This document shows positions 2,746-27,173 of a stretch of 64,000 nucleotides of DNA, in pieces; the first letter of the stretch is position 1, and each line of letters starts with the position of its first letter. Below the pieces are notes generated by a model, which did not search any database, was not told where the DNA came from, and worked only from the letters and a program-made list of their open reading frames with translations. Origin of the DNA: Natrinema halophilum (lineage in GTDB: Archaea > Halobacteriota > Halobacteria > Halobacteriales > Natrialbaceae); contig NZ_CP058601.1 of NCBI RefSeq assembly GCF_013402815.2, forward strand, positions 2,666,001 through 2,730,000, written 5' to 3'. The translations under genes and the position numbers were made by a program.

Positions 2746-3059
2746 GTGCTCGGCTTACCCGTGATACTGTTCGGTGTTCCGATCGCAGTCTGGCCGGACA
2801 CGTTCGCGCGCTTCGACGAGCAGCTATAGTAGTCGTTGAAACGATTTACCCACCGGTCGAACTACTGCGGCCAGCGAGCACTCGCTGGCCGCGAATTCGC
2901 GAGCGGGGTGTGCAATGACGTTCAGCGACTACTATTGACGCGATCGGAAGCAAGCGATCGAGTTCGGCGGTCGAATCCGTCGGATGGAAAGTGGGACTGA
3001 TATTGGTTAGCGGGGCCGGCATCGTCGTGTTGGTCCTTGCCACGTTGCTCGCCGGCTGA
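2746..3059 (+). pseudogene. Small two-helix membrane protein gene interrupted by a 110-bp inverted-repeat element
   Basis: Joining position 2825 to 2936, thereby removing the inverted-repeat element, gives one continuous 67-codon frame. It starts at GTG 2746 and ends at TGA 3057-3059. The restored protein has a hydrophobic N-terminal helix (LGLPVILFGVPIAVW), a charged linker that spans the junction (RFDEQL + DAIGSK) and a second hydrophobic helix (GLILVSGAGIVVLVLATLLAG). This is the layout of small haloarchaeal membrane proteins of the kind written 'FPxxxARFEERLDAIGSK', as I remember them. With the element in place the frame is broken, so the gene is probably inactive. The start codon is uncertain because other in-frame GTGs lie upstream. 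Confidence 0.6.
2826..2935. mobile_element. MITE-like non-autonomous element, copy A
   Basis: A 110-bp element with terminal inverted repeats: the left end ATAGTAGTCGTTGAA and the right end, read inverted, ATAGTAGTCGCTGAA, differing at one base. Its centre holds a perfect 12-bp hairpin (GCGGCCAGCGAG, 2-nt loop, 2867-2892). It carries no protein-coding gene. A second copy lies at 49616-49726. Its ends are fixed here because removing it exactly restores the interrupted small membrane-protein frame. No target-site duplication is evident. It was probably mobilised by a transposase encoded elsewhere; which IS family supplies it cannot be told. Confidence 0.75.
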
Positions 3060-3145
3060 CGGGGTCGAGCGGTGACGATGCGTTCGGTCTCGTGCCATCC
3101 GACCGGCGTTTGCGAATCGGGGTGCGCTTTCAAAGAGACTCGACG

Positions 3146-3934
3146 CTACGATTCCCTGACCTGGTCGGGGAGGCGGTTGTCGAGTAGTTCGCGGATCCAG
3201 ACGGCGAACCCGTGATCGCGACCGTACGTCCAGACGGCCATCTCGTTGACTACGTCGGGGAGGTCGCTCTCTTTCATTCCGGCCGAGACGATCGCTCGCT
3301 TATCGACCAGAAGCAGCTGTGCCGGTAGTTCAGAGCAGACGTCGTTCGTCGTCTCGAGATCTGCCGCAATCGTCGTGTTCGCGTTCGGCACCGCCGCCGT
3401 GAATTTCTCGGCGCCTGCTTCCGAGGAGACTTCGATGTACGTGTTGACGCCGCGGTCGACCGCCGACCCGAGAGCCGTCTGGATTTCGGGGTCGACCACC
3501 TCGGTCGCAGCAACGAGGTAATGGATCGACTCCTCGGCCTCCTCGAGGAAGGTGACGATGCGTTCGGTGACGTGTTCCGGCTGCGTAATCGCCCACATTC
3601 CCTCGTCGTCCGCTGAGTCGGGTTTCTCGAGTTGGCCGAGAGCGTTCTCCGCGGCGTTGATTCGGGAATCGAAATCCTCGCGAATTCGGCGACATGCCGT
3701 CTCTATCGGGACGGCCTTGTATTCGCGAGGCTCCGTTTGTTGGACGCTGACCAACCCCCTGCGCTCGAGGCGCTCGATGGTGTCGTACACCCGCGAGCGA
3801 GGAATGTCTGCGACCTGGCTAACCTCCTTGGCCGTCCCTTTCGAGAGGCGAGTGAGGGCGGCAAAGCACCGGGCCTCATACTCCGTCAGGCCCAGTTCCT
3901 CGAGCGCCGTGACCGCTTCCTCGGCGTTTGGCAC
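3146..3934 (-). CDS. TrmB-family transcriptional regulator
   Basis: A 262-residue protein. The N-terminal winged helix reads LEELGLTEYEARCFAALT, then GTAKEVSQVADIPRSRVYDTI and LERRGLVSV, which is the TrmB-type helix-turn-helix. A coiled linker (about residues 80-115) is followed by a C-terminal domain with AEESIHYLVAATEVVDPEIQ and LLVDKRAIVSAG, resembling the effector/PLD-like half of TrmB regulators. TrmB proteins respond to sugars or other metabolites; the ligand here is unknown. The GTG at 3934 was chosen (another GTG lies 15 nt upstream). A TATA-like element (GGTTATAAC on the minus strand, about 3990) marks the promoter. That promoter abuts the remnant transposase, so its upstream control region may have been replaced. 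Confidence 0.8.
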   Translation of the reverse strand: MPNAEEAVTALEELGLTEYEARCFAALTRLSKGTAKEVSQVADIPRSRVYDTIERLERRGLVSVQQTEPREYKAVPIETACRRIREDFDSRINAAENALGQLEKPDSADDEGMWAITQPEHVTERIVTFLEEAEESIHYLVAATEVVDPEIQTALGSAVDRGVNTYIEVSSEAGAEKFTAAVPNANTTIAADLETTNDVCSELPAQLLLVDKRAIVSAGMKESDLPDVVNEMAVWTYGRDHGFAVWIRELLDNRLPDQVRES

Positions 3935-3995
3935 ACGACGGTACACGATCAGCGGTCGGGAAAGAACGCTGCCTTCTCCCGCCACGTCGTTATAA

Positions 3996-4598
3996 CCGTC
4001 GAAGCGTGCGCGGACGGCTCGGCGGAAACTCTCCCGGCGCAAAGACCACTTCCGCCACACGCTCGCGAAACATATCGTACAACGGTGTGTCGAAGAAGAT
4101 GTGGAGAAGATAGCAGTTGGCGACCTTCGCGACATCCGCGAGGATGAGAACGGCGACTCGCGGAACGGGGGTGCGTCAGGGAACAAGAAACTCAGCGGAT
4201 GGGAGTTCGACCGATTCGCCCGGCTCCTCGAATACAGAGCCGAGGAACACGGCATCCTCGTTGACCGCGTAGACGAAGAGAACACGAGCAAGACGTGTTC
4301 GTGTTGCGGGCAGATCCGAGATGTGAACCGCGTGGAGCGCGGTCTGTACGTCTGTTCGGCGTGCGAAACGACGGTGAACGCAGACGTGAACGGCGCGGTG
4401 AATATTCGCAGAAAGATAACGCAGAGTCCCCCGACGGGGAATATGAGTAACGGCTGGGTGGCACACCCCGAAGTCTTCATGTTCGACCGCGAGAGCGGTC
4501 GGTTCACACCGAGAGAACAGGGAGACTACAAACCCTACTATCCCAATGCTCGGGATTCCTCCGGCTTTAGCCGGAGAAGGATGTCAAACGATGACTAG
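3996..4598 (+). pseudogene. tnpB: C-terminal fragment of TnpB (IS200/IS605-family, IS1341-type transposon)
   Basis: The frame from about 3996 encodes the C-terminal half of a TnpB RNA-guided nuclease/accessory transposase. It shows KDHFRHTLAKHIVQRCVEE, KIAVGDLRDIRED (start of a RuvC segment), GILVDRVDEENTSKTCS, a zinc ribbon CSCCG...CSACE, and NADVNGAVNI (the last catalytic Asp region). The N-terminal half, including the first RuvC aspartate region, is missing, and an in-frame stop (3993) lies directly upstream. It is therefore a relic. Full-length haloarchaeal TnpB proteins are about 400 residues; about 200 remain. The tail overlaps the end of the convergent small zinc-protein gene by 4 nt. 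The right-end hairpin of the element is still present. Confidence 0.85.
4559..4576 (+). repeat. Right-end hairpin of the IS1341-type element
   Basis: A perfect 7-bp stem with a TTTA loop (CTCCGGC-TTTA-GCCGGAG) lies within the last codons of the tnpB remnant, preceded by GGGATTC and followed by AAGGATGTCAA. In IS200/IS605-family elements the right end forms such a subterminal hairpin and overlaps the 3' end of the guide (omega/re) RNA. The left end of the element is not found, so only this end survives. Confidence 0.65.
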
Positions 4599-4744
4599 TC
4601 GAGCGTTCGAAACGAGGTCCCGCCGCACGGACAGCCGGTGGTGCTTCCGATCGGTCGTGGGTCGTCGGACGTGAGCCAGACCGCAAGCGCTCTGCCGCAA
4701 TCCGTACACTGCGCTGCTCCTTTCCGCCGTGACTGCATCGTCAT
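4595..4744 (-). CDS. Small zinc-ribbon protein (49 aa)
   Basis: A 49-residue protein starting MTMQSRRKGAAQCTDCG with a second knuckle GCPCGGTSFRTLD. The CxxC and CxCG pairs suggest one zinc ribbon. Such very small zinc-finger proteins are common and conserved in haloarchaea, with some implicated in regulation; the role here is unknown. Two start codons are possible (4744 or 4738). The stop codon overlaps the end of the convergent tnpB remnant, so the transposon end inserted right at its 3' side. Its promoter must lie in 4745-4930. Confidence 0.65.
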   Translation of the reverse strand: MTMQSRRKGAAQCTDCGRALAVWLTSDDPRPIGSTTGCPCGGTSFRTLD

Positions 4745-4929
4745 TGAGCAACGTTTTCTCGCAGGACGTATAAGGCGAGCGCGAGTCAGATCGAAGTCCA
4801 CGGACGGTTGTTTCGGCTGTAACAACAGTCGGATCTGGGTCGGGCTACGAGCGTCGAGGGCTCCGCGAGACTCGGTTGGTCGGCGGAATCGGTCAGCAGG
4901 CGAGCCTCGATGAGGGGCCGGCCGACTAA

Positions 4930-5107
4930 CGGCTCGTGAGGCAAAGTCGACACGGCCCGTGAGGCAAAGTCGACACGGCCCGTGAGGCAAAGTCGACACG
5001 GCCCGTGAGGCAAAGTCGACACGGCCCGTGAGGCAAAGTCGACACGGCCCGTGAGGCAAAGTCGACACGGCCCGTGAGGCAAAGTCGACACGGCCCGTGA
5101 GGCAAAA
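4930..5107. repeat. 23-bp tandem repeat (7 full units and one partial) before the aldehyde dehydrogenase gene
   Basis: The unit CGGCCCGTGAGGCAAAGTCGACA (written here in two halves: CGGCCCGTGAGG and CAAAGTCGACA) recurs every 23 bp from 4930, with the last partial unit ending at about 5107. Units are identical apart from one base in the first (CGGCTCG). The array ends only 4 nt before the ATG at 5112 of the next gene, so it occupies the promoter and leader position. Each unit contains the palindrome GTCGAC. The near-perfect identity implies recent expansion or homogenisation. Confidence 0.95.
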
Positions 5108-5111
5108 GCGT

Positions 5112-6761
5112 ATGAGCGCGGGCGCAGAGTTACCGGTAGCCATGGCACTCGAAACGGATTCGCCGCCGGACGCCCTCGCTGCGACGGGCATTTTCGACGG
5201 ATGGCTCACGGGGTTGACCGAGCGCATCGATGCCGCCGGAACCGAGACGATCGACGTTCGAGCGCCGGCGACAGACGCTGTGATCGGATCGATCCCCCGC
5301 TGTACCGAAGATGACGTCGAACGGGCCGTCGAGAGCGCCCGAAGCGCGCAGTCGTCGTGGGCCGAGACGCCGATCGACGAGCGTAGCGAAATTCTCGAGC
5401 GGTTCGGCGACCTCGTTTTGAAACGTCGCGCGGAACTGCTCGACTGCCTCCAGCTCGAGACGGGCAAGTCTCGCCGCCACGCCGTCGAAGAAGTCGTCGA
5501 CGTGGCGATGGCGTGTTCGTACTACGCCGATCGCGGGGCCGAAGCCCTCGGCGAAGATCGGCGACGCGGCGTGTTTCCGCTGGCGACGACCGCCCACGTG
5601 ACGTACGAGCCGGTCGGCGTCGTCGGCGCTATCTCGCCGTGGAACTATCCCCTCACGCTCTCGCTAACCGACGTCCTCCCCGCGCTCGTCGCCGGCAACA
5701 CCGTCGTCCTCAAACCCGACGAGAAGACGCCCTACACCGCGCTCGCGATGGCTGACCTGCTCGAGCGAGCGGGACTGCCCGACGGCTGCTTCGAAATCGT
5801 CACCGGCCGGGGGGCGACGGTCGGCCCGGCGTTGATCGACCGCGTCGACTACGTCTCGTTTACCGGCAGCACCGAGACGGGCCGATCCGTCGCCGAACGG
5901 GCGGGTCGAAATCTGATCGGGTGCTCGCTCGAGCTGGGCGGGAAGAACCCGCTACTCGTTCTCGACGACGCCGACGTCGAAGAGGCGGCCCGCGGGGCAG
6001 TCCAGGCCTGTTTTACGAACGCCGGGCAACTGTGTCTCGCCGCCGAGCGACTCTACGTCGCCGACGCGGTCTACGACGAGTTTCTCGATGCCTTCGTCGA
6101 GGAGACGCGACGGCTCACGCTCGGCACCGGCTTCGATTTCGCGGACGACGTCGGATCGCTGATCGACGGCGACCAGCTCGAGCGCGTCGAATCCCACGTC
6201 GAAGACGCGCGCGATCGAGGTGCGACGGTCCTCACGGGCGGCCGGCGTCGGCCCGACGTCGGACCGTTCTGTTACGAGCCGACGATCCTGACGGACGTCG
6301 ATCCGGATGCGACGGCCGCCTGCGAGGAGACGTTCGGCCCGGTCGTCTCGGTCGAATCCGTGCCGGACGTGGCGACGGGGATCGAGCGGGCGAACGACTC
6401 GGACTACGGCCTGAACGCGAGCGTCTGGACCGGCAACAGGACGCGTGGGGTCGCCGTCGCCCGCGAGATCGATTGCGGGACCGTCTGCGTCAACGACGCG
6501 TACATCTCCGGTTGGGCGTCGGTCGACGCGCCGATGGGCGGCTTCGGCGATTCCGGACTCGGTCGACGACACGGTCGCGAGGGGATCGAGCGCTACCTCG
6601 AATCCCGGACGATCACCACCTCCCGGATCGGGCCGCTCGACGCGCCACCCGGGATTCCGGTGTCGTGGTACGCCCGCGGAATGTTTGCGCTGACACGTCT
6701 GCAACACCGGTTGCCGACCGTCTCGAGCATCGAACGGTGGCTCCGAAACGCGAGATTCTGA
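5112..6761 (+). CDS. NAD(P)-dependent aldehyde dehydrogenase, succinate-semialdehyde dehydrogenase-like
   Basis: A 549-residue ALDH-superfamily enzyme that oxidises an aldehyde to the acid. It has the fold signatures PWNYPLTLSL and AGNTVVLKPDEKTP (cofactor binding), SFTGSTETGRSVAERAG (Rossmann loop), the general-base motif LELGGKNPLLVLD, and the catalytic cysteine in NAGQLCLAAERLYV. EETFGPVVSVE and GGFGDSGLGRRHG follow near the C-terminus. The closest general type is the succinate-semialdehyde or broad-specificity branch, but the substrate is not fixed by sequence. It is about 50 residues longer than usual, with an extra C-terminal tail after the active domains. The start may be 5112 or 5142; 5112 lies immediately after the tandem repeat. 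Confidence 0.85.
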   Translation: MSAGAELPVAMALETDSPPDALAATGIFDGWLTGLTERIDAAGTETIDVRAPATDAVIGSIPRCTEDDVERAVESARSAQSSWAETPIDERSEILERFGDLVLKRRAELLDCLQLETGKSRRHAVEEVVDVAMACSYYADRGAEALGEDRRRGVFPLATTAHVTYEPVGVVGAISPWNYPLTLSLTDVLPALVAGNTVVLKPDEKTPYTALAMADLLERAGLPDGCFEIVTGRGATVGPALIDRVDYVSFTGSTETGRSVAERAGRNLIGCSLELGGKNPLLVLDDADVEEAARGAVQACFTNAGQLCLAAERLYVADAVYDEFLDAFVEETRRLTLGTGFDFADDVGSLIDGDQLERVESHVEDARDRGATVLTGGRRRPDVGPFCYEPTILTDVDPDATAACEETFGPVVSVESVPDVATGIERANDSDYGLNASVWTGNRTRGVAVAREIDCGTVCVNDAYISGWASVDAPMGGFGDSGLGRRHGREGIERYLESRTITTSRIGPLDAPPGIPVSWYARGMFALTRLQHRLPTVSSIERWLRNARF

Positions 6762-16828: not shown

Positions 16829-17090
16829 CGGGTCGTACGTACCCGCCTCGAGCAAATAAAGTTCGTCGGAGATTTCCTGGAATAAATATGCGTGTGTATC
16901 ACAAGCAAATGGCCCCGGACGTCTCACGACCGATCGTCGGGACGCAAAACGGCTCCCGTTTGGCCCACCAGTTACACGAGCGACCGCTCGCTGCGTTCGA
17001 GATCGATCCGCGACTCGAGCGGGCAGCGTCGAGTCCTCCATCCGTCCGATAAGCGTGCGCTTTTCATACCCCAGGCCCCGACTGACGGCT

Positions 17091-18224
17091 ATGAGAACGC
17101 GCGGGACGTTGCGGCTGGCGACGAGGGGGTCGGCACTCGCCCGGCGACAGGCCGCCCTGGTGAAAGAAGCCCTCGAGGAGCGTCGGTACGAGGTCGAACT
17201 CGTCACCGTAGAGACGACGGGCGATCAGATCACAGACGAGTTGATCCACCGACTCGGAAAAACGGGCGCGTTCGTCCGCGAGTTAGACGAGCGCGTCCTC
17301 GAGGGAGATCTCGACGGCGCGGTGCATTCGATGAAGGACATGCCGACTGAGCAGCCGCCGGACCTCGTCACCGCCGCGGTTCCCGAACGCGGGCGACCCG
17401 GCGACGTCCTCGTCACGCCCGACGGCTCGCAGCTCGATGAGCTTCCCCACGGGGCAACCGTCGGCACCTCGAGTCTGCGCCGGCGCGCACAGCTACTCTC
17501 CGAGCGGCCGGACCTCCAGGTCGAACCGCTGCGAGGGAACGTCGACACGCGGCTCGAGAAGCTCCTCGCCCCCGCACTACAGGACGAACATCAGGACCGG
17601 ACGGAAGCCGACAAAGAACGGAAGGGGAACGGTGGCAGCGAGGACTTCGAATCCGAGTACGACCGCACCGTCGACGACTGGTTCGAGGATCTCTCGGAAC
17701 TCGAGCGGCAGGCGCTCGGCCGCGAGGTCGAGACCGAGTACGACGCGATCGTCCTCGCCGCAGCCGGCCTCGAGCGCAGCGGGCTCACCCATCACGTCGA
17801 TTATCGGCAACTGCCGACGGGAACGTTCGTTCCCGCACCCGGACAGGGAGCACTCGCCGTGACCGCAAGCGACGGAGAGACGGCACGCGAGGTTCAGACG
17901 GCGATCGACCATCCGCGGAGTCGCGTCGAGACGACCGTCGAGCGAACGATCCTGGCCGAACTGGGGGGCGGTTGTATCGCTCCGATCGGTATCTACGCGG
18001 TCGTCCAGGGAGAGTATGTCCACGCGACCGTTAGCGTCTTCGACCGCGACGGCGAGGAATCGGTGGCGGCCAGTCGCGATCTGCCGATCGAAACGCACGC
18101 CGAAGCCGCCCGCGAGTTCGCACGGGACCTCGCGGACCGCGGTGCAGCGGACCTGATCGAGGCCGCCCACGAGGACGCGGACGACGACGGCGTCTCCGAG
18201 GAAGATAAGCCCGCGGGGAAGTAG
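17091..18224 (+). CDS. hemC: Hydroxymethylbilane synthase (porphobilinogen deaminase)
   Basis: A 377-residue enzyme that polymerises four porphobilinogen units into hydroxymethylbilane. Motifs are RLATRGSALARRQA, KTGAFVRELDERVLEGDLD, AVHSMKDMPTE (catalytic Asp-containing region nearby), VGTSSLRRRAQLL, LRGNVDTRL and the dipyrromethane-cofactor cysteine in LGGGCIAPIG. An acidic insertion of about 50 residues (around 165-215: EADKERKGNGGSEDFESEYD) is a haloarchaeal trait. Start at 17091; the preceding 12 codons of open frame are unlikely. It begins the hemC-cobA-hemD run; the cobA ATG follows 17 nt after its stop. Confidence 0.97.
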   Translation: MRTRGTLRLATRGSALARRQAALVKEALEERRYEVELVTVETTGDQITDELIHRLGKTGAFVRELDERVLEGDLDGAVHSMKDMPTEQPPDLVTAAVPERGRPGDVLVTPDGSQLDELPHGATVGTSSLRRRAQLLSERPDLQVEPLRGNVDTRLEKLLAPALQDEHQDRTEADKERKGNGGSEDFESEYDRTVDDWFEDLSELERQALGREVETEYDAIVLAAAGLERSGLTHHVDYRQLPTGTFVPAPGQGALAVTASDGETAREVQTAIDHPRSRVETTVERTILAELGGGCIAPIGIYAVVQGEYVHATVSVFDRDGEESVAASRDLPIETHAEAAREFARDLADRGAADLIEAAHEDADDDGVSEEDKPAGK

Positions 18225-18241
18225 CTAGCGAGTACCAGCGA

Positions 18242-19078
18242 ATGTCAGCATCCGATACTGCCGCCGAGCCCGGAACCGTCTACCTCGTCGGGAGCGGCCC
18301 AGGCGACCCCGATCTGTTGACCGTCAAAGCGAAGCGCCTGATCGAGGCCGCGGACGTCGTTCTCCACGACAAGCTTCCCGGACCGGAGATACTCGAATTG
18401 CTCCCGGAACACCGTCGCGAAGACGTCGGCAAGCGCGCCGGCGGCGAGCGCACGCCCCAGTCGGAGATCAACGAGCGATTGGTCGAGCTCGCCCGCGCGG
18501 GCAGGTCCGTCGTCCGACTCAAAGGCGGTGACTCGTTCGTCTTCGGTCGCGGCGGCGAGGAAGCGGAATATCTCGCGGCTCACGAAATCCCGTTCGAGGT
18601 CGTCCCCGCGGTAACGTCCGCCATCGCCGCGCCCGCGGTGGCCGGTATTCCGGTCACGCACCGAGATCACGCCTCCTCGGTGTCGTTCGTCACAGGCCAC
18701 GAAGACCCCACTAAAGAGGAGTCGGCCGTCGACTGGGACGCACTGGCCGCCACCGGCGGCACCATCGTCGTCCTGATGGGCGTCGGCCGGCTTCCGGACT
18801 ACACGACGGCCTTGCGCGAGGCCGGCGTGGAGCCCGAGACGCCGGTCGCACTCGTCGAACGGGGTACCTGGCCCGGACAGCAGGTGGCGACCGGGACCCT
18901 CGAGACGATCGTCGACGTCCGCGACGAGGCGGATATCTCGCCGCCCGCCGTGACGGTGATCGGAGACGTCGCCGGCACGCGCGAGTCGGTCGTCGACTTT
19001 CTACAGAACGATTACGGAGCGGTCGCCGAGAGAAACGATGAGCAACACGAGGACGGCGAGTGCGGACCCACGAGGTGA
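18242..19078 (+). CDS. cobA: Uroporphyrinogen-III C-methyltransferase (SUMT)
   Basis: A 278-residue SAM-dependent methylase that adds methyls at C2 and C7 of uroporphyrinogen III to make precorrin-2. Motifs are VYLVGSGPGDPDLLTVKA, DVVLHDKL, VVRLKGGDSFVFGRGGEEAE, VPAVTSAIAAPAVAGIPVTHR and GTIVVLMGVGRL, all typical of SUMT. Precorrin-2 leads to siroheme, which the nitrite reductase encoded at 37-39 kb requires and from which archaea also derive haem, as well as to cobalamin. It lies between hemC and hemD with only 4 nt to the hemD start. A short acidic tail after the conserved domain is characteristic of haloarchaea. Confidence 0.96.
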   Translation: MSASDTAAEPGTVYLVGSGPGDPDLLTVKAKRLIEAADVVLHDKLPGPEILELLPEHRREDVGKRAGGERTPQSEINERLVELARAGRSVVRLKGGDSFVFGRGGEEAEYLAAHEIPFEVVPAVTSAIAAPAVAGIPVTHRDHASSVSFVTGHEDPTKEESAVDWDALAATGGTIVVLMGVGRLPDYTTALREAGVEPETPVALVERGTWPGQQVATGTLETIVDVRDEADISPPAVTVIGDVAGTRESVVDFLQNDYGAVAERNDEQHEDGECGPTR

Positions 19079-19082
19079 GACG

Positions 19083-19838
19083 ATGAGCGAGATACCCACT
19101 ATCGCCGTGTTCCGGCCCGACGACGACCGTCTCGAGCGGGCCACCGCTTTGCTCGAAGACCTCGGAGCCGATCCGGTCCCCGACCCCATGCTCGCGGTGG
19201 AAGCGACCGGCGCGGTGCCCCGGACCGACGCCGACTACGTCGTCTTTACGAGCAAGACTGGCGCAGAACTGGTTTCCGAAACGGGCTGGGAAGGGAGCGA
19301 GGAAACCATCTGCGCGATCGGCCCGGCGACGGCCGACGCGCTCCGCGAGGAAGGATACTCGGTCGACCTCGTCCCCGCGGAGTTCACCTCGAGCGGCCTC
19401 GTCGCGACACTGCGAGATCGCGTCGACGGCGCACGCGTCGAAATTGCCCGCAGCGACCACGGGAGTGACGTCTTACTCGAAGGGCTCGACGCCGCCGGCG
19501 CGTACGTACACGAAACGATCCTCTATCGGCTGGTGCGTCCCGAAGAAAGCGGTCGATCCGTCGCGATGGCCGCCGACGGACGGCTCGACGCCGCCTGCTT
19601 CACATCGTCGCTGACCGTCGAGCACTTTCTCGAGACCGCAGCCGAACGCGAGATTCGCGAGGCGGCGCTCCACGGACTCGACGCAGCGACCGTCGGCGTG
19701 ATTGGCGAGCCGACGGCTGAAACGGCTACGGATCTAGGAATCGACGTGGATCTTGTCGCGAGCGAGGCTACCTTCGAGCGACTCGCCGTCGAAACCGTCG
19801 GTACCGTCGACGGGGCGACCTCGACCGACGGCGAGTAA
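19083..19838 (+). CDS. hemD: Uroporphyrinogen-III synthase
   Basis: A 251-residue enzyme that closes hydroxymethylbilane with inversion of ring D. HemD is poorly conserved, but the layout fits: IAVFRPDDDRLERATALLEDLGADPVP at the start, YVVFTSKTGAELVSE, ICAIGPATADALREEGY, then LARSD-type segments (RVEIARSDHGSDVL), CFTSSLTVEHFLE and VGVIGEPTAETATDLG at the end. The start at 19083 is 4 nt after the cobA stop, giving tight coupling of hemC-cobA-hemD. A T-run follows the stop at about 19855-19863. Confidence 0.93.
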   Translation: MSEIPTIAVFRPDDDRLERATALLEDLGADPVPDPMLAVEATGAVPRTDADYVVFTSKTGAELVSETGWEGSEETICAIGPATADALREEGYSVDLVPAEFTSSGLVATLRDRVDGARVEIARSDHGSDVLLEGLDAAGAYVHETILYRLVRPEESGRSVAMAADGRLDAACFTSSLTVEHFLETAAEREIREAALHGLDAATVGVIGEPTAETATDLGIDVDLVASEATFERLAVETVGTVDGATSTDGE

Positions 19839-23824: not shown

Positions 23825-24190
23825 ACTGATGCGTTCGGCCACGGAATCCTAAGCGTTCCGCCGCGGTGACATATTACAGCCTGATTCGAGCCGACGTATC
23901 GCAGTTTGGCCAAGGTGGCGACGCAGCAGCGCACCCGACCGCACCGATACGTATCGGAACCACCCTGGTACCCCGCGTGTCACGCCGAGGAGTTCAGATG
24001 CCATCCGATGTGGCCGCGTTCGGCCCATCTCGAACCGTAGCGACCAGTTCCAAGCGACTGGCGAGCCGGAGCCGTGTTGTTGTTCGGTTGACGAGGACTC
24101 AGACCAGTAAGCCACTCACCTATCTGCCGGCTTATTCTCACCCAGAAAACTCTCGAAATATTGAATACTAAACCACCTTTTCTTCCGGTT
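23825..24190. other. Intergenic left border of the accessory island
   Basis: No gene is supported on either strand. Base composition changes from GC-rich to clearly AT-richer at about 24080-24180. A box A-like stretch (AAATATTGAATACTA) lies at 24157-24171, suited to a start at 24191. No tRNA or direct repeat marking an attachment site was recognised. Confidence 0.4.
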
Positions 24191-24868
24191 GTGGCGAACG
24201 ATAATTCCCACAGGCTATCACGTCGAAACGTAATCAGATCAACAGCGGGTCTCTCCAGTCTCGGTATCACCTCTCTCCTGGCCTCTGGTACGGGAGCAGC
24301 GCAGTCTGGTACTCGACGAGGAAAGTACGGGTATGGGATCGACGACAGCGGGTATCTCGTCTACTATGGCGACGATGACGACTCGATGATCGCCTCGACC
24401 GAGGCGATGAACGAGGCGAAGGACGAGGGGAAACTGGATTTCTCCATGCAGAACGGTGCGGTCACGATCGACTCAAAGATCGAATCGCAGACGCAACCCA
24501 ATACTAACGGGGTAAGAACAGCTAGATACCGCGCACCGCCATCCGAAACCTGCAACGGGAAAACCGAATATGGTGTATTTCACACGCCTTCTGGTATCCG
24601 GCATAAACTATGGATCAATCACTGCGACTGTCGCGACCTCGTAGACTTGCTGTCTATCGGCATAGAGCTAGCTGCGTTCAGCGCAGCGGTCAACGGTCTC
24701 TACGGTAATATTCCGGCTGTCGTTGTCAGTGCTGCCGCAGGATTCCTAATGCGGATCGGGAAGTCCCTAATCAACAATAATGACGAAGGGCATGGTATCG
24801 TGCTCGCCGTTACGACGTATCGTCTGACCGGTGGTGTTACAGCCGGAGGTTTAGAACCTCAGCACTGA
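24191..24868 (+). CDS. Tat-exported cysteine-containing peptide precursor (candidate archaeocin)
   Basis: A 225-residue protein read from the GTG at 24191; a TTG at 24161 would add ten residues. It has a Tat leader: HRLSRRNVIRSTAGLSSLG then TSLLASGTGAAQ. The middle (about residues 40-115) is acidic and polar. The C-terminal third has three cysteines (CNGKTEYG and NHCDCRD) followed by about 42 mostly hydrophobic, glycine- and alanine-rich residues (LLSIGIELAAFSAAVNGLYG, NIPAVVVSAAAGFLMRIG), then a polar tail ending LEPQH. This layout (export leader, acidic propart, small Cys/hydrophobic end) resembles halocin and other bacteriocin precursors, but I see no match to halocin C8, S8 or H4. Three small membrane proteins follow, as immunity genes often do. 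Function is inference. Confidence 0.6.
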   Translation: MANDNSHRLSRRNVIRSTAGLSSLGITSLLASGTGAAQSGTRRGKYGYGIDDSGYLVYYGDDDDSMIASTEAMNEAKDEGKLDFSMQNGAVTIDSKIESQTQPNTNGVRTARYRAPPSETCNGKTEYGVFHTPSGIRHKLWINHCDCRDLVDLLSIGIELAAFSAAVNGLYGNIPAVVVSAAAGFLMRIGKSLINNNDEGHGIVLAVTTYRLTGGVTAGGLEPQH

Positions 24869-24890
24869 TATCGCTGATCCACCTCACCCT

Positions 24891-24900
24891 AAAATACTTA
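24891..24900 (+). promoter_or_regulatory. Box A promoter of small membrane protein gene 1
   Basis: AAAATACTTA lies about 30 nt before the ATG at 24926. The same ten bases occur at the same place before the second and third paralogues, implying each is transcribed from its own promoter as a leaderless message. Confidence 0.65.
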
Positions 24901-24925
24901 TACCTATACGAATTTGAAATAACCA

Positions 24926-25135
24926 ATGGTTCCCGAAACAGGATATACGAAGTACCCGAAAATGTCCGTGTTCATGCTCGTATTTGCAATCTTCCTCATG
25001 GGCTCGTCTATCTATGTCGAAGGGATAGACGGAGTGCTGAGAGTAGATGACTTTTGGGAAACAGCGATATTCTTTACGGGAGGTGCGATCGGGCTGATTT
25101 CGCTGTCTGCGCTGGCATGGGTCGCTGTGCGGTAG
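24926..25135 (+). CDS. Two-helix membrane protein, immunity-like paralogue 1
   Basis: A 69-residue protein with two hydrophobic helices (SVFMLVFAIFLMGSSIYV and AIFFTGGAIGLISLSALAW) separated by an acidic loop (EGIDGVLRVDDFWET). It begins TGYTKYPKM and ends in a short basic tail. It is one of three tandem paralogues; all share TG-aromatic-TK, SVFMLV, IY, W.T.IF and LSAL.WV. Size, topology and position downstream of an exported peptide gene suggest a self-immunity protein; no database family is recognised. ATG at 24926 follows the shared leader TGAAATAACCA. Confidence 0.75.
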   Translation: MVPETGYTKYPKMSVFMLVFAIFLMGSSIYVEGIDGVLRVDDFWETAIFFTGGAIGLISLSALAWVAVR

Positions 25136-25319
25136 GGAGGATAAGATTCCGTATAGAGACGGACAGTTTATTCAGATCTCATTTTCCGAGAATAGCGGGG
25201 GAATAGCCAGCCGTAGGTAGGGCCAGAATTTCAGAGGCGGAGGTCCAGAACCCCAGAGTTGAGATAGTCGAACCACCTCTCCGAAAAATACTTACACAAA
25301 TTAGTAGTTGAAATAACCA
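25136..25319 (+). repeat. Tandem spacer copy 1, with a relic of the precursor gene's 3' end
   Basis: From GATTCCGTATAGAGACGG (25145) this spacer is nearly identical to 25538 onward, with a few substitutions. At 25236-25262 the codons GGC GGA GGT CCA GAA CCC then CAG AGT TGA read GGGPEPQS-stop, matching the last codons of the peptide precursor gene (AGGLEPQH-stop). Box A AAAATACTTA is at 25285-25294. The spacer thus keeps a precursor-gene tail in front of the next membrane gene. Confidence 0.75.
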
Positions 25320-25529
25320 ATGGCCTATCAAACAGGGTTTACGAAAAAACCGGAACTGTCCGTGTTCATGCTGGTGTACGCAATCGTCATCATTGGACTG
25401 GAGATTTACTTTTCAGGTCTTGATGCGATCTTAAATGTCGAGGATATATGGGTTACGGGCATATTCGCGGCTATGGTTGTGCAGGTGATCGTAGCACTGT
25501 CCGCTCTAGCATGGGTCGCTATGCGGTAG
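25320..25529 (+). CDS. Two-helix membrane protein, immunity-like paralogue 2
   Basis: A 69-residue paralogue of its neighbours and the most divergent of the three. It begins MAYQTGFTKKPELSVFMLV, has helices around SVFMLVYAIVIIGLEIYF and GIFAAMVVQVIVALSAL, and ends WVAMR. Conserved positions shared with the others: TGFTK, SVFMLV, IY, G-L/I-D, V..W.T.IF and LSALAWV. It lies exactly one repeat period (394 bp) after paralogue 1 and has its own box A at 25285-25294. Confidence 0.75.
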   Translation: MAYQTGFTKKPELSVFMLVYAIVIIGLEIYFSGLDAILNVEDIWVTGIFAAMVVQVIVALSALAWVAMR

Positions 25530-25712
25530 GGGGGTCAGATTCCGTATAGAGACGGACAGTTTATTCGGGTCTCATTTTCCGAGAATAGCGGGGGAGTAGC
25601 CAGTCGTAGGTAGGGCCAGAATTTCAGAGGCGGCGGTCTAGAACCACAGCACTAACACCACCAAACCGCCTCGCCCTAAAATACTTACACCTATACACAG
25701 TTGAAATAACCA
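25530..25712 (+). repeat. Tandem spacer copy 2, with a second relic of the precursor gene's 3' end
   Basis: Nearly identical to the previous spacer from GATTCCGTATAGAGACGG (25538) on. At 25629-25655 the codons read GGGLEPQH-stop, an exact match to the final five residues of the peptide precursor. Differences lie largely in third codon positions (GAACCT, GAACCC, GAACCA across the three copies), as expected for sequence that was once coding. Box A AAAATACTTA is at 25678-25687. Confidence 0.8.
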
Positions 25713-25931
25713 ATGGAATTTGAAACAGGATTCACGAAATACCCGAAAATGTCCGTTTTCATGCTCGTATTTGCGATTTTCCTCATGGCCTCGTCGATCT
25801 ATTTTGAAGGGATAGACGGGATACTGAGAGTAGATAACTTTTGGGAAACGGCGATATTCTTTTCGGCAGGTGCGATGGGACTGATTTCGCTGTCTGCGCT
25901 GGTATGGGTCGTTTTCCTGAAAGAGAGTTAG
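25713..25931 (+). CDS. Two-helix membrane protein, immunity-like paralogue 3
   Basis: A 72-residue paralogue, very close to paralogue 1 (shared TKYPKMSVFMLVFAIFLM, FWETAIFF and GLISLSAL). The C-terminus differs (WVVFLKES). It is 393 bp after paralogue 2. The spacer that follows starts with the same GATTCCGTATAG sequence but then diverges, so the repeat array ends here. Close similarity of copies 1 and 3, with copy 2 divergent, argues either for gene conversion or for selection to diversify copy 2. Confidence 0.75.
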   Translation: MEFETGFTKYPKMSVFMLVFAIFLMASSIYFEGIDGILRVDNFWETAIFFSAGAMGLISLSALVWVVFLKES

Positions 25932-26080
25932 ATTCCGTATAGCGACATCGGTTCATTCGGGCCTCCTTTTTTCGAGAATAGGGGAGTAGTAGCTACCCGT
26001 GGGGATATCGCTCTGGATATGGTCTGAATTCAGGGAACTACGAGTCAAGATAACTGACCATATCGAGAAATAGGCCAGTG

Positions 26081-26430
26081 TCACAGTGGTACATCGAAGC
26101 ATGATTGGCCGGACCCAGAATCAAAGAAATAAGGGACGCCGCCTTCGACCCACCAGAGGTCCCGATCGTGGTTCTCCTTCAACCACTCTCGGGCCTCGTC
26201 GATGGACGTGAGGCGAACGTTGTCTCGGGCTCCCCCTCCGTAATACTCGAGGGGGAGTTCGGGTCCTTGCCGAGTTCTCGGATGATGTCTTCGACTCGGC
26301 CCTGATCCGATGACTTGAACCCGCTGTTCTTCAACTTATCGACGGTCCACTTCTTGGACCCAACGACTTCGTCACGGATCAGTGTCTCCACCACATCCGC
26401 TTCGAGTTCGTAGTCGGTTTTCTTCGCCAT
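26081..26430 (-). CDS. Small island protein with a one-base frameshift
   Basis: Starting at ATG 26430 the first frame reads MAKKTDYELEADVVETLIRD, then WTVDKLKNSGFKSSDQGRVE and ELGKDPNSP, and would end at 26179 in low-quality sequence. Shifting by one base in the G5 run at 26251-26255 continues a much better frame: LEYYGGGARDNVRLTSIDEA, REWLKENHDRDLWWVEGG, to a TGA at 26081-26083, giving about 116 residues. The protein looks soluble and charged; I recall similar proteins of unknown function in haloarchaeal accessory regions but cannot name a family. One base is missing either in the genome or in the read. It is divergent from the HTH gene at 26543. Confidence 0.55.
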
Positions 26431-26467
26431 CGGTATATCGTGATTATAGTGCCATGTACTTACATCT

Positions 26468-26534
26468 GTTGTTTGTGAGCAACATCAACGTAGTCTGGCG
26501 ACAACAAATTATAAGTGCTGTACTAACATTGTTG
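26468..26534. promoter_or_regulatory. Shared operator-like repeats between the divergent island genes
   Basis: An inverted pair CAACAA (26502-26507) and TTGTTG (26529-26534) brackets the box A ATTATAAG of the rightward HTH gene. A second inverted pair GTTG and CAAC lies at about 26469-26483, closer to the leftward gene, whose own TATA-like ACTATAATC is at about 26437-26447. Bracketing of the promoter suggests autoregulation by the HTH protein. Confidence 0.4.
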
Positions 26535-26542
26535 CTAGTAGG

Positions 26543-26869
26543 ATGTCGAAAACCGAATCCGACCGATCGAATGGCGGTGGGAAAATCATCTACGACGTGC
26601 TAGGCGACCACCCAAGAACCCGGATAGTGTTCACGCTGATAGCCCAGTCCCGACGTGGCGACACCCACGACCTGAATATCTCCGACCTCGCTCGCATGGC
26701 CGGAGTGGAACGATCAACCGTCTACGACCACATAGACCAGTTGCTTGAGACAGGGGTCGTTGAGGAATCACGGACGATCGGCAACTCGAAAATGTACCAG
26801 ATAAACCGGGACAGCGAGGCAGCCAAAGGACTAGCAAAGTTTGACGACGCAAGGCTGATGGAGGAGTGA
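26543..26869 (+). CDS. Winged-helix transcriptional regulator (ArsR-like)
   Basis: A 108-residue protein of the small haloarchaeal winged-helix type. After a polar N-terminus come IIYDVLGDHPRTRIVFTLIA, DLNISDLARMAGVERSTVYD (helix-turn-helix with recognition helix VERSTVYDHI) and LLETGVVEESRTIGNSKMYQ (the wing). It probably controls the island genes, including itself, since inverted repeats flank its box A. It is divergent from the frameshifted small gene at 26430. Confidence 0.8.
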   Translation: MSKTESDRSNGGGKIIYDVLGDHPRTRIVFTLIAQSRRGDTHDLNISDLARMAGVERSTVYDHIDQLLETGVVEESRTIGNSKMYQINRDSEAAKGLAKFDDARLMEE

Positions 26870-27173
26870 AGGTCAGCGTTGCCACTACGCGGCCCTCGAG
26901 CGTTGTACCAACCCGCTACGCAGAACTTCCACGGAGCGGGTAACAGGCCTCAAAAACAGACTTTGGATATAATTGAGAATTCAACTAGCAATACATTTCC
27001 GCAGATTTTGATAGCTCTAACTGACGCATCGGAGAAACACTGAATGGTGGTGCAGCGGTGACCGCTTCGCCGGCGAGGGGCGCTGAATCCGAGACGACCG
27101 ATCGCGAACCCAACGGCCGGCGTCCATCCGGAAATTTATCCCGGATGGCGACCCATCATCGACCGATGAATCG
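26870..27173. other. Intergenic right border of the accessory island
   Basis: No gene is seen. The left two-thirds (about 26950-27020) are AT-rich and non-coding; GC content rises again by about 27050. A TATA-like GGAAATTTATCC at about 27130-27141 would serve the DHH gene at 27174. No tRNA or attachment-site-like repeat was recognised. Confidence 0.4.

Follow-up and report, generated by a model that had tools for sequence, protein, structure and literature searches.

COMPARISON WITH DESCRIBED ANTIMICROBIAL SYSTEMS

Halocin activity is common among haloarchaea; to our knowledge, few halocin genes are known, and immunity genes hardly any. The locus described here lies in a 64,000-nucleotide stretch of the Natrinema halophilum genome (NCBI RefSeq assembly GCF_013402815.2, contig NZ_CP058601.1, positions 2,666,001 to 2,730,000 of the forward strand; hereafter the window), where the gene of an exported precursor protein is followed by three tandem genes for small membrane proteins (M1, M2, and M3). 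It is probably a toxin-immunity cassette of an undescribed haloarchaeal family, in which the precursor would yield a killing domain and the M proteins would protect the producer.

Among described systems, geobacillin 26 and alicyclobacillin 24 are secreted class III bacteriocins of ~240 amino acids (aa) that kill close relatives by acting on the membrane; the present precursor resembles them in size, in its predicted helical core with beta elements and in a C-terminal hydrophobic helix (PMC13176240). They are exported by Sec, whereas the precursor here carries a twin-arginine translocation (Tat) signal, and immunity goes unmentioned in the paper that describes them (PMC13176240). Halocin C8 (HalC8), like the presumed antimicrobial here, is a haloarchaeal product cut from a larger precursor, but its production and immunity derive from a single gene (PMC3831642), whereas the immunity candidates at the present locus are separate membrane-protein genes. 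In the available part of its published account, HmHapP (HFX_0892) of Haloferax mediterranei is a secreted precursor activated by an extracellular protease, its active part being the N-terminal 45 aa, and no immunity partner is named there (PMC12893001); the conserved hydrophobic part of the present precursor is, unlike that segment, C-terminal. By analogy, HmHapP and geobacillin 26/alicyclobacillin 24 may be regarded as functional parallels to the precursor. Class II and circular bacteriocins offer the likeness of a small membrane immunity protein dedicated to a small hydrophobic toxin, as is presumed here, but no sequence relation to them was found, and the precursor here is longer and has a prodomain.

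No match to Pfam, NCBIfam, PADLOC, or PHROGs was obtained for the precursor or the M proteins in a scan of all six proteins, and fold searches with two AlphaFold2 models against solved structures gave no convincing match. The first-pass annotation, made from the sequence without database searches, had recognized neither component as halocin C8, S8, or H4; no library match to any halocin family was obtained, and the library and fold searches likewise placed the precursor in no known enzyme or structural family. Three candidate relationships were considered. Membership of Geo26A_fam (NF035925) was raised by weak NCBIfam rows, and a targeted search stayed below the 40-bit cut-off (0/28 precursor-bearing genomes and 0/1 window genome at ≥40 bits, with best scores at background level). 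For the circular bacteriocin fold, a saposin-like bundle of four or five helices, enterocin NKR-5-3B gave structural rows (Z 2.9, and Z 3.4 with 56 aligned and root-mean-square deviation 2.8) that were tied with unrelated proteins and too weak to use. A known anti-phage defense protein was set aside, there being no PADLOC model match for the precursor or M. No bacterial relative was detected in plasmid records, family consensus included, or in a single genome-contig scan that used a narrow query; no viral relative was found by search, and the literature searched, largely without subscription papers, holds no account of such a pairing of precursor and membrane protein.

THE PRECURSOR AND ITS TANDEM MEMBRANE PARTNERS

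The components of the locus are as follows (window coordinates, all on the + strand).

24191–24868: precursor gene, 225 aa from GTG, start chosen from homologues
24191–24301: Tat signal (SRRNVIR, hydrophobic stretch, GTGAA), read from the letters; across the family the twin Arg is almost invariant
24329–24475: predicted acidic prodomain, strand-strand-helix-strand-strand; AlphaFold2 predicted local distance difference test (pLDDT) ~83–92 over most of it
24476–24526: disordered linker, candidate cleavage region; AlphaFold2 pLDDT <50 at residues 99–112
24527–24865: C-terminal domain, presumed mature toxin, with NNDEGxGI motif and EPQ end; from AlphaFold2 and co-varying cysteines
24841–25911: three copies, spaced 393–394 bp apart, of a tandem unit made up of a precursor 3′ end, a promoter, an M gene, and a terminator-like hairpin
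24890–24925: M1 promoter-like segment, AAAATACTTATA ~27 nt ahead of the ATG, leaderless layout; from sequence
24926–25135: M1, membrane protein of 69 aa with two helices, presumed to confer immunity; from sequence and homologues
25228–25262: precursor 3′-end remnant before M2, FRGGGPEPQS and stop; from sequence
25320–25529: M2, 69-aa paralogue, 51% identical to M1; from sequence
25620–25655: precursor 3′-end remnant before M3, FRGGGLEPQH and stop; from sequence
25713–25931: M3, 72-aa paralogue, 80% identical to M1; from sequence

The open reading frame (ORF) of the precursor opens at a TTG at 24161 and ends at 24868, but comparison with homologues favors a start at GTG 24191. The SRRNVIR Tat motif, the acidic part, the three cysteines, and the Gly/Ala-rich hydrophobic C-terminal part on which the first-pass annotation had based an exported precursor were all found. 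In the AlphaFold2 model, built with 32 relatives as input (mean pLDDT 74), two confident parts are joined by the disordered linker (residues 99–112), at which cleavage may take place. The first part, residues 47–95, is predicted to form a small beta-beta-alpha-beta-beta prodomain, and residues 39–98 bear a net charge of −7 over 60 aa. The second, residues 113–225 (113 aa), is predicted to comprise two strands, three hydrophobic helices, and two further strands, its long helix (176–197) being hydrophobic and Gly/Ala-rich. Both glycines of NNDEGxG are invariant and the PQ end is nearly so. Across the wider family a first cysteine (CGKN or CxGK) co-occurs with a cysteine at DHC/DDC or GCG (counts 25/1/1/5, Fisher p 2e-4), members without one usually being without both; this co-variation suggests a disulfide in the C-terminal domain, as would be expected of an exported domain. 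In the window precursor the first cysteine is residue 121, and its candidate partner would be residue 145 or 147. Between intact precursors, amino-acid sites change more in the C-terminal domain than in the leader and prodomain.

M1, M2, and M3 were confirmed as tandem paralogues of about 70 residues (69–72 aa) with two hydrophobic segments apiece. Positive residues precede helix 1, the inter-helix loop is acidic (VEGIDGVLRVDDFWE), and an Arg terminates M1 and M2, which suggests a topology with both ends inside and the acidic loop outside. The row of three had been described as membrane-protein genes behind one precursor; the paralogues stand, and the description needs correction in that remains of a precursor 3′ end also sit before M2 and M3. 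Each tandem unit carries such an end, GG[L/P]EPQ[H/S] and stop, together with a TATA-like box ~27 nt before the ATG of the M gene; ahead of M2 and of M3 the precursor is reduced to about a dozen terminal codons. Read in this way, the ancestral duplicated unit was presumed toxin plus M, and the present row arose by duplication of that toxin-immunity unit, with two of the toxins since lost. The segment before M1 is retained in other species and also precedes M2 and M3; it probably serves as a promoter.

RECURRENCE IN NATRINEMA AND ACROSS THE HALOBACTERIA

M homologues were present in 7 of 29 Natrinema genomes, in every case (7/7) directly 3′ of a precursor or its remains, so that none lacked a trace of the exported peptide. 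The same gene pair is found in six other Natrinema species, relatives in the genus including N. pallidum, N. mahii, N. gelatinilyticum, and N. versiforme. Pairwise ratios of nonsynonymous to synonymous substitution (dN/dS) lie between 0.11 and 0.56 in all computable pairs of M genes, M2 and M3 included, and the M genes are under purifying selection. Because the pair recurs in six species and its membrane genes are so constrained, the locus is not a product of chance. The window genome itself carries three precursor loci with three different partner kinds, those of the other two being unrelated to the M type.

C1:2888344 (L055 8336–9239): precursor locus, same genome, with a 69-aa two-helix partner
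C1:1599045 (L164 4530–5769): precursor locus, same genome, with a ~130–144-aa four-helix partner

A profile built from nine precursors and searched in 391 genomes matched at E <0.001 in 48 of them, many of the weak matches being to the Tat leader only. Forty precursor-family loci were examined across Halobacteria, partners being called among mechanically selected ORFs by their hydropathy, with a background check. A membrane protein of ≤180 aa with at least two helices was encoded within 400 bp at 25/40 loci, against 4/58 in the background (p 3e-9) and 0/15 among Tat-only controls. With the limits set at ≤330 aa and 500 bp, a multi-helix membrane protein accompanied the precursor at 33/40 loci vs 9/58 (Fisher p 2e-11), so that the recurring pairing, proposed at the outset as a check on the locus, is borne out both in Natrinema and in the wider family. 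At most loci the partner gene is on the same strand.

The 38 partners (58 to 311 aa) fall into ~15–16 families with no detectable mutual similarity. Mapped onto the precursor tree, partner type required 15 changes, where the minimum is 14 and the mean after shuffling 23.8 (0/200 shuffles as low); on the reconstructed tree, partner type follows the precursor. L101 and L103, from two genera, carry almost the same precursor together with its 299-aa partner, which suggests recent transfer. A second subfamily, with an SSQHCDC end and a ~300-aa membrane partner, is represented at L101 4421–6454, L103 3184–5217, and L105 2994–5028.

PARTNERS OUTLIVE THEIR PRECURSORS

An open precursor of the M type occurs in the window, in N. 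pallidum, and in G391. That of N. mahii is broken by a stop inside the Tat RR motif, those of N. versiforme and N. gelatinilyticum by frameshifts, and in G004, a genome without any other precursor, a 5′ deletion leaves the last ~30 residues; all nine M copies are open. Elsewhere in the family, a broken precursor beside an intact partner was seen at L056, L110, L111, L112, L160, L161/L162, L163, and L165, the last an orphan four-helix partner in N. mahii (4969–5570) preceded by only the last ~58 precursor residues. Together with the Natrinema M loci (N. mahii, N. versiforme, N. gelatinilyticum, G004, and ahead of M2/M3), 13 cases counted as independent have a broken or deleted precursor and an intact partner, and one case is the reverse. 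This bias in decay is supportive, not conclusive.

An immunity role is favored because the partners are mutually unrelated, follow the precursor tree, and outlive broken precursors; immunity proteins behave in this way, whereas such behavior would not be expected of a receptor or an export partner. That the C-terminal domain is a secreted pheromone and the small membrane proteins its receptors would suit an exported precursor with a cognate membrane protein and the co-inheritance of partner type. The partners, however, have almost no cytoplasmic part for signaling, come in ~15 unrelated kinds that are kept after precursor loss, and are joined by no recurrent kinase or regulator, a helix-turn-helix (HTH) gene being seen only in the window; this explanation seems unlikely. 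An export, anchoring, or folding helper of a surface protein would accord with the same-strand adjacency at most loci, but homologous precursors are served by unrelated partners, the M genes have a promoter-like segment of their own, and the orphan in G004 is retained where no precursor remains, all of which makes such a helper improbable. Least tenable is a selfish maintenance module, a toxin-antitoxin pair acting inside one cell to stabilize the islet, which would explain an accessory, site-variable element whose toxin decays while the protector stays, but both the Tat leader and the co-variation of cysteines suggest extracellular action, and a cell that lacks the toxin would not benefit from an orphan protector.

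PROPOSED MODE OF ACTION

The toxin-immunity interpretation is likely on the combination of an exported precursor, an adjacent cognate gene, and a partner kept after precursor loss in all but one of the cases of decay. Under this interpretation the precursor would be exported via the Tat pathway and a protease would cut at the floppy linker to remove the acidic prodomain. The freed 113-aa domain, usually disulfide-held, might then enter or coat the membrane of related archaea by means of its hydrophobic helical core, while the two-helix M, seated in the producer membrane with its acidic loop outward, would block the released domain. The cassette would be an accessory islet subject to duplication and relocation, the signs of mobility being an empty site in other Natrinema and the near-identical precursor in two genera (L101/L103). 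Toxins would decay more often than immunity genes, and orphan immunity genes would still guard against the toxin of neighbors.

For the family as a whole, we lean towards a superfamily of Tat-exported toxins with a common C-terminal core, GKN...NxxGxGV...PQ, and membrane immunity proteins from at least 15 unrelated families, that is, a modular, partner-swapping toxin-immunity system in which orphan immunity genes would be left by decayed toxins.

Several points tell against these proposals. At L109 (G091; 2945–5638) it is the 200-aa partner that is split, by an insertion element carrying a transposase gene, and the precursor that is open. Weighted by gene length, the decay bias is only moderate (≥13/14, P ~0.015, with independence assumed and gene lengths rounded), and, because rows and loci are related, the family-wide tests are not as independent as they seem. 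No clear partner lies within 500 bp at L098 (a short contig), L106, or L107. Membrane attack is argued from hydrophobicity, since the mature fold matches nothing solved. If the interpretation holds, the family supplies dozens of toxin-immunity candidates in haloarchaea, and both the specificity of archaeal immunity and the decay of archaeal toxins become testable from sequence.

GENOMIC CONTEXT

The locus occupies a 3.3-kb AT-richer stretch between the end of an epimerase-like gene (23842) and the start of a DHH-family gene (27174).

23843–27173, no strand: accessory islet between the sugar-epimerase-like gene and the DHH-family gene; from flank comparison and G+C content

Its G+C content of 0.48–0.53, against ~0.60–0.69 on the flanks, agrees with the AT-richer composition originally remarked upon. 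A full epimerase gene lies directly upstream of the DHH gene in 7/28 other Natrinema, the epimerase edge is visible inside the 1.5-kb flank in four more, and the gap is only ~140–150 bp at both sites read out (L187 and L189); the stretch is regarded as an accessory islet because the flanking genes adjoin so closely elsewhere. Besides the precursor gene and M1–M3, it contains a − strand gene of 83 aa (26179–26430) and a gene on the + strand (26543–26869) for a 108-aa winged-HTH protein (TrmB/ArsR/Csa3-like). Composition and an adjacent small regulator had together been taken to indicate an accessory island: the islet is upheld by the empty site in other Natrinema, and the regulator drops out of the argument, since the insertion site as it occurs in other Natrinema showed neither the HTH gene nor the 83-aa gene, and both were dropped as parts of the cassette. 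Elsewhere in the window (17055–19838, +), consecutive hydroxymethylbilane synthase-, uroporphyrinogen methyltransferase-, and uroporphyrinogen synthase-like genes, as judged from their translations, appear to form an ordinary haem/cobalamin cluster.
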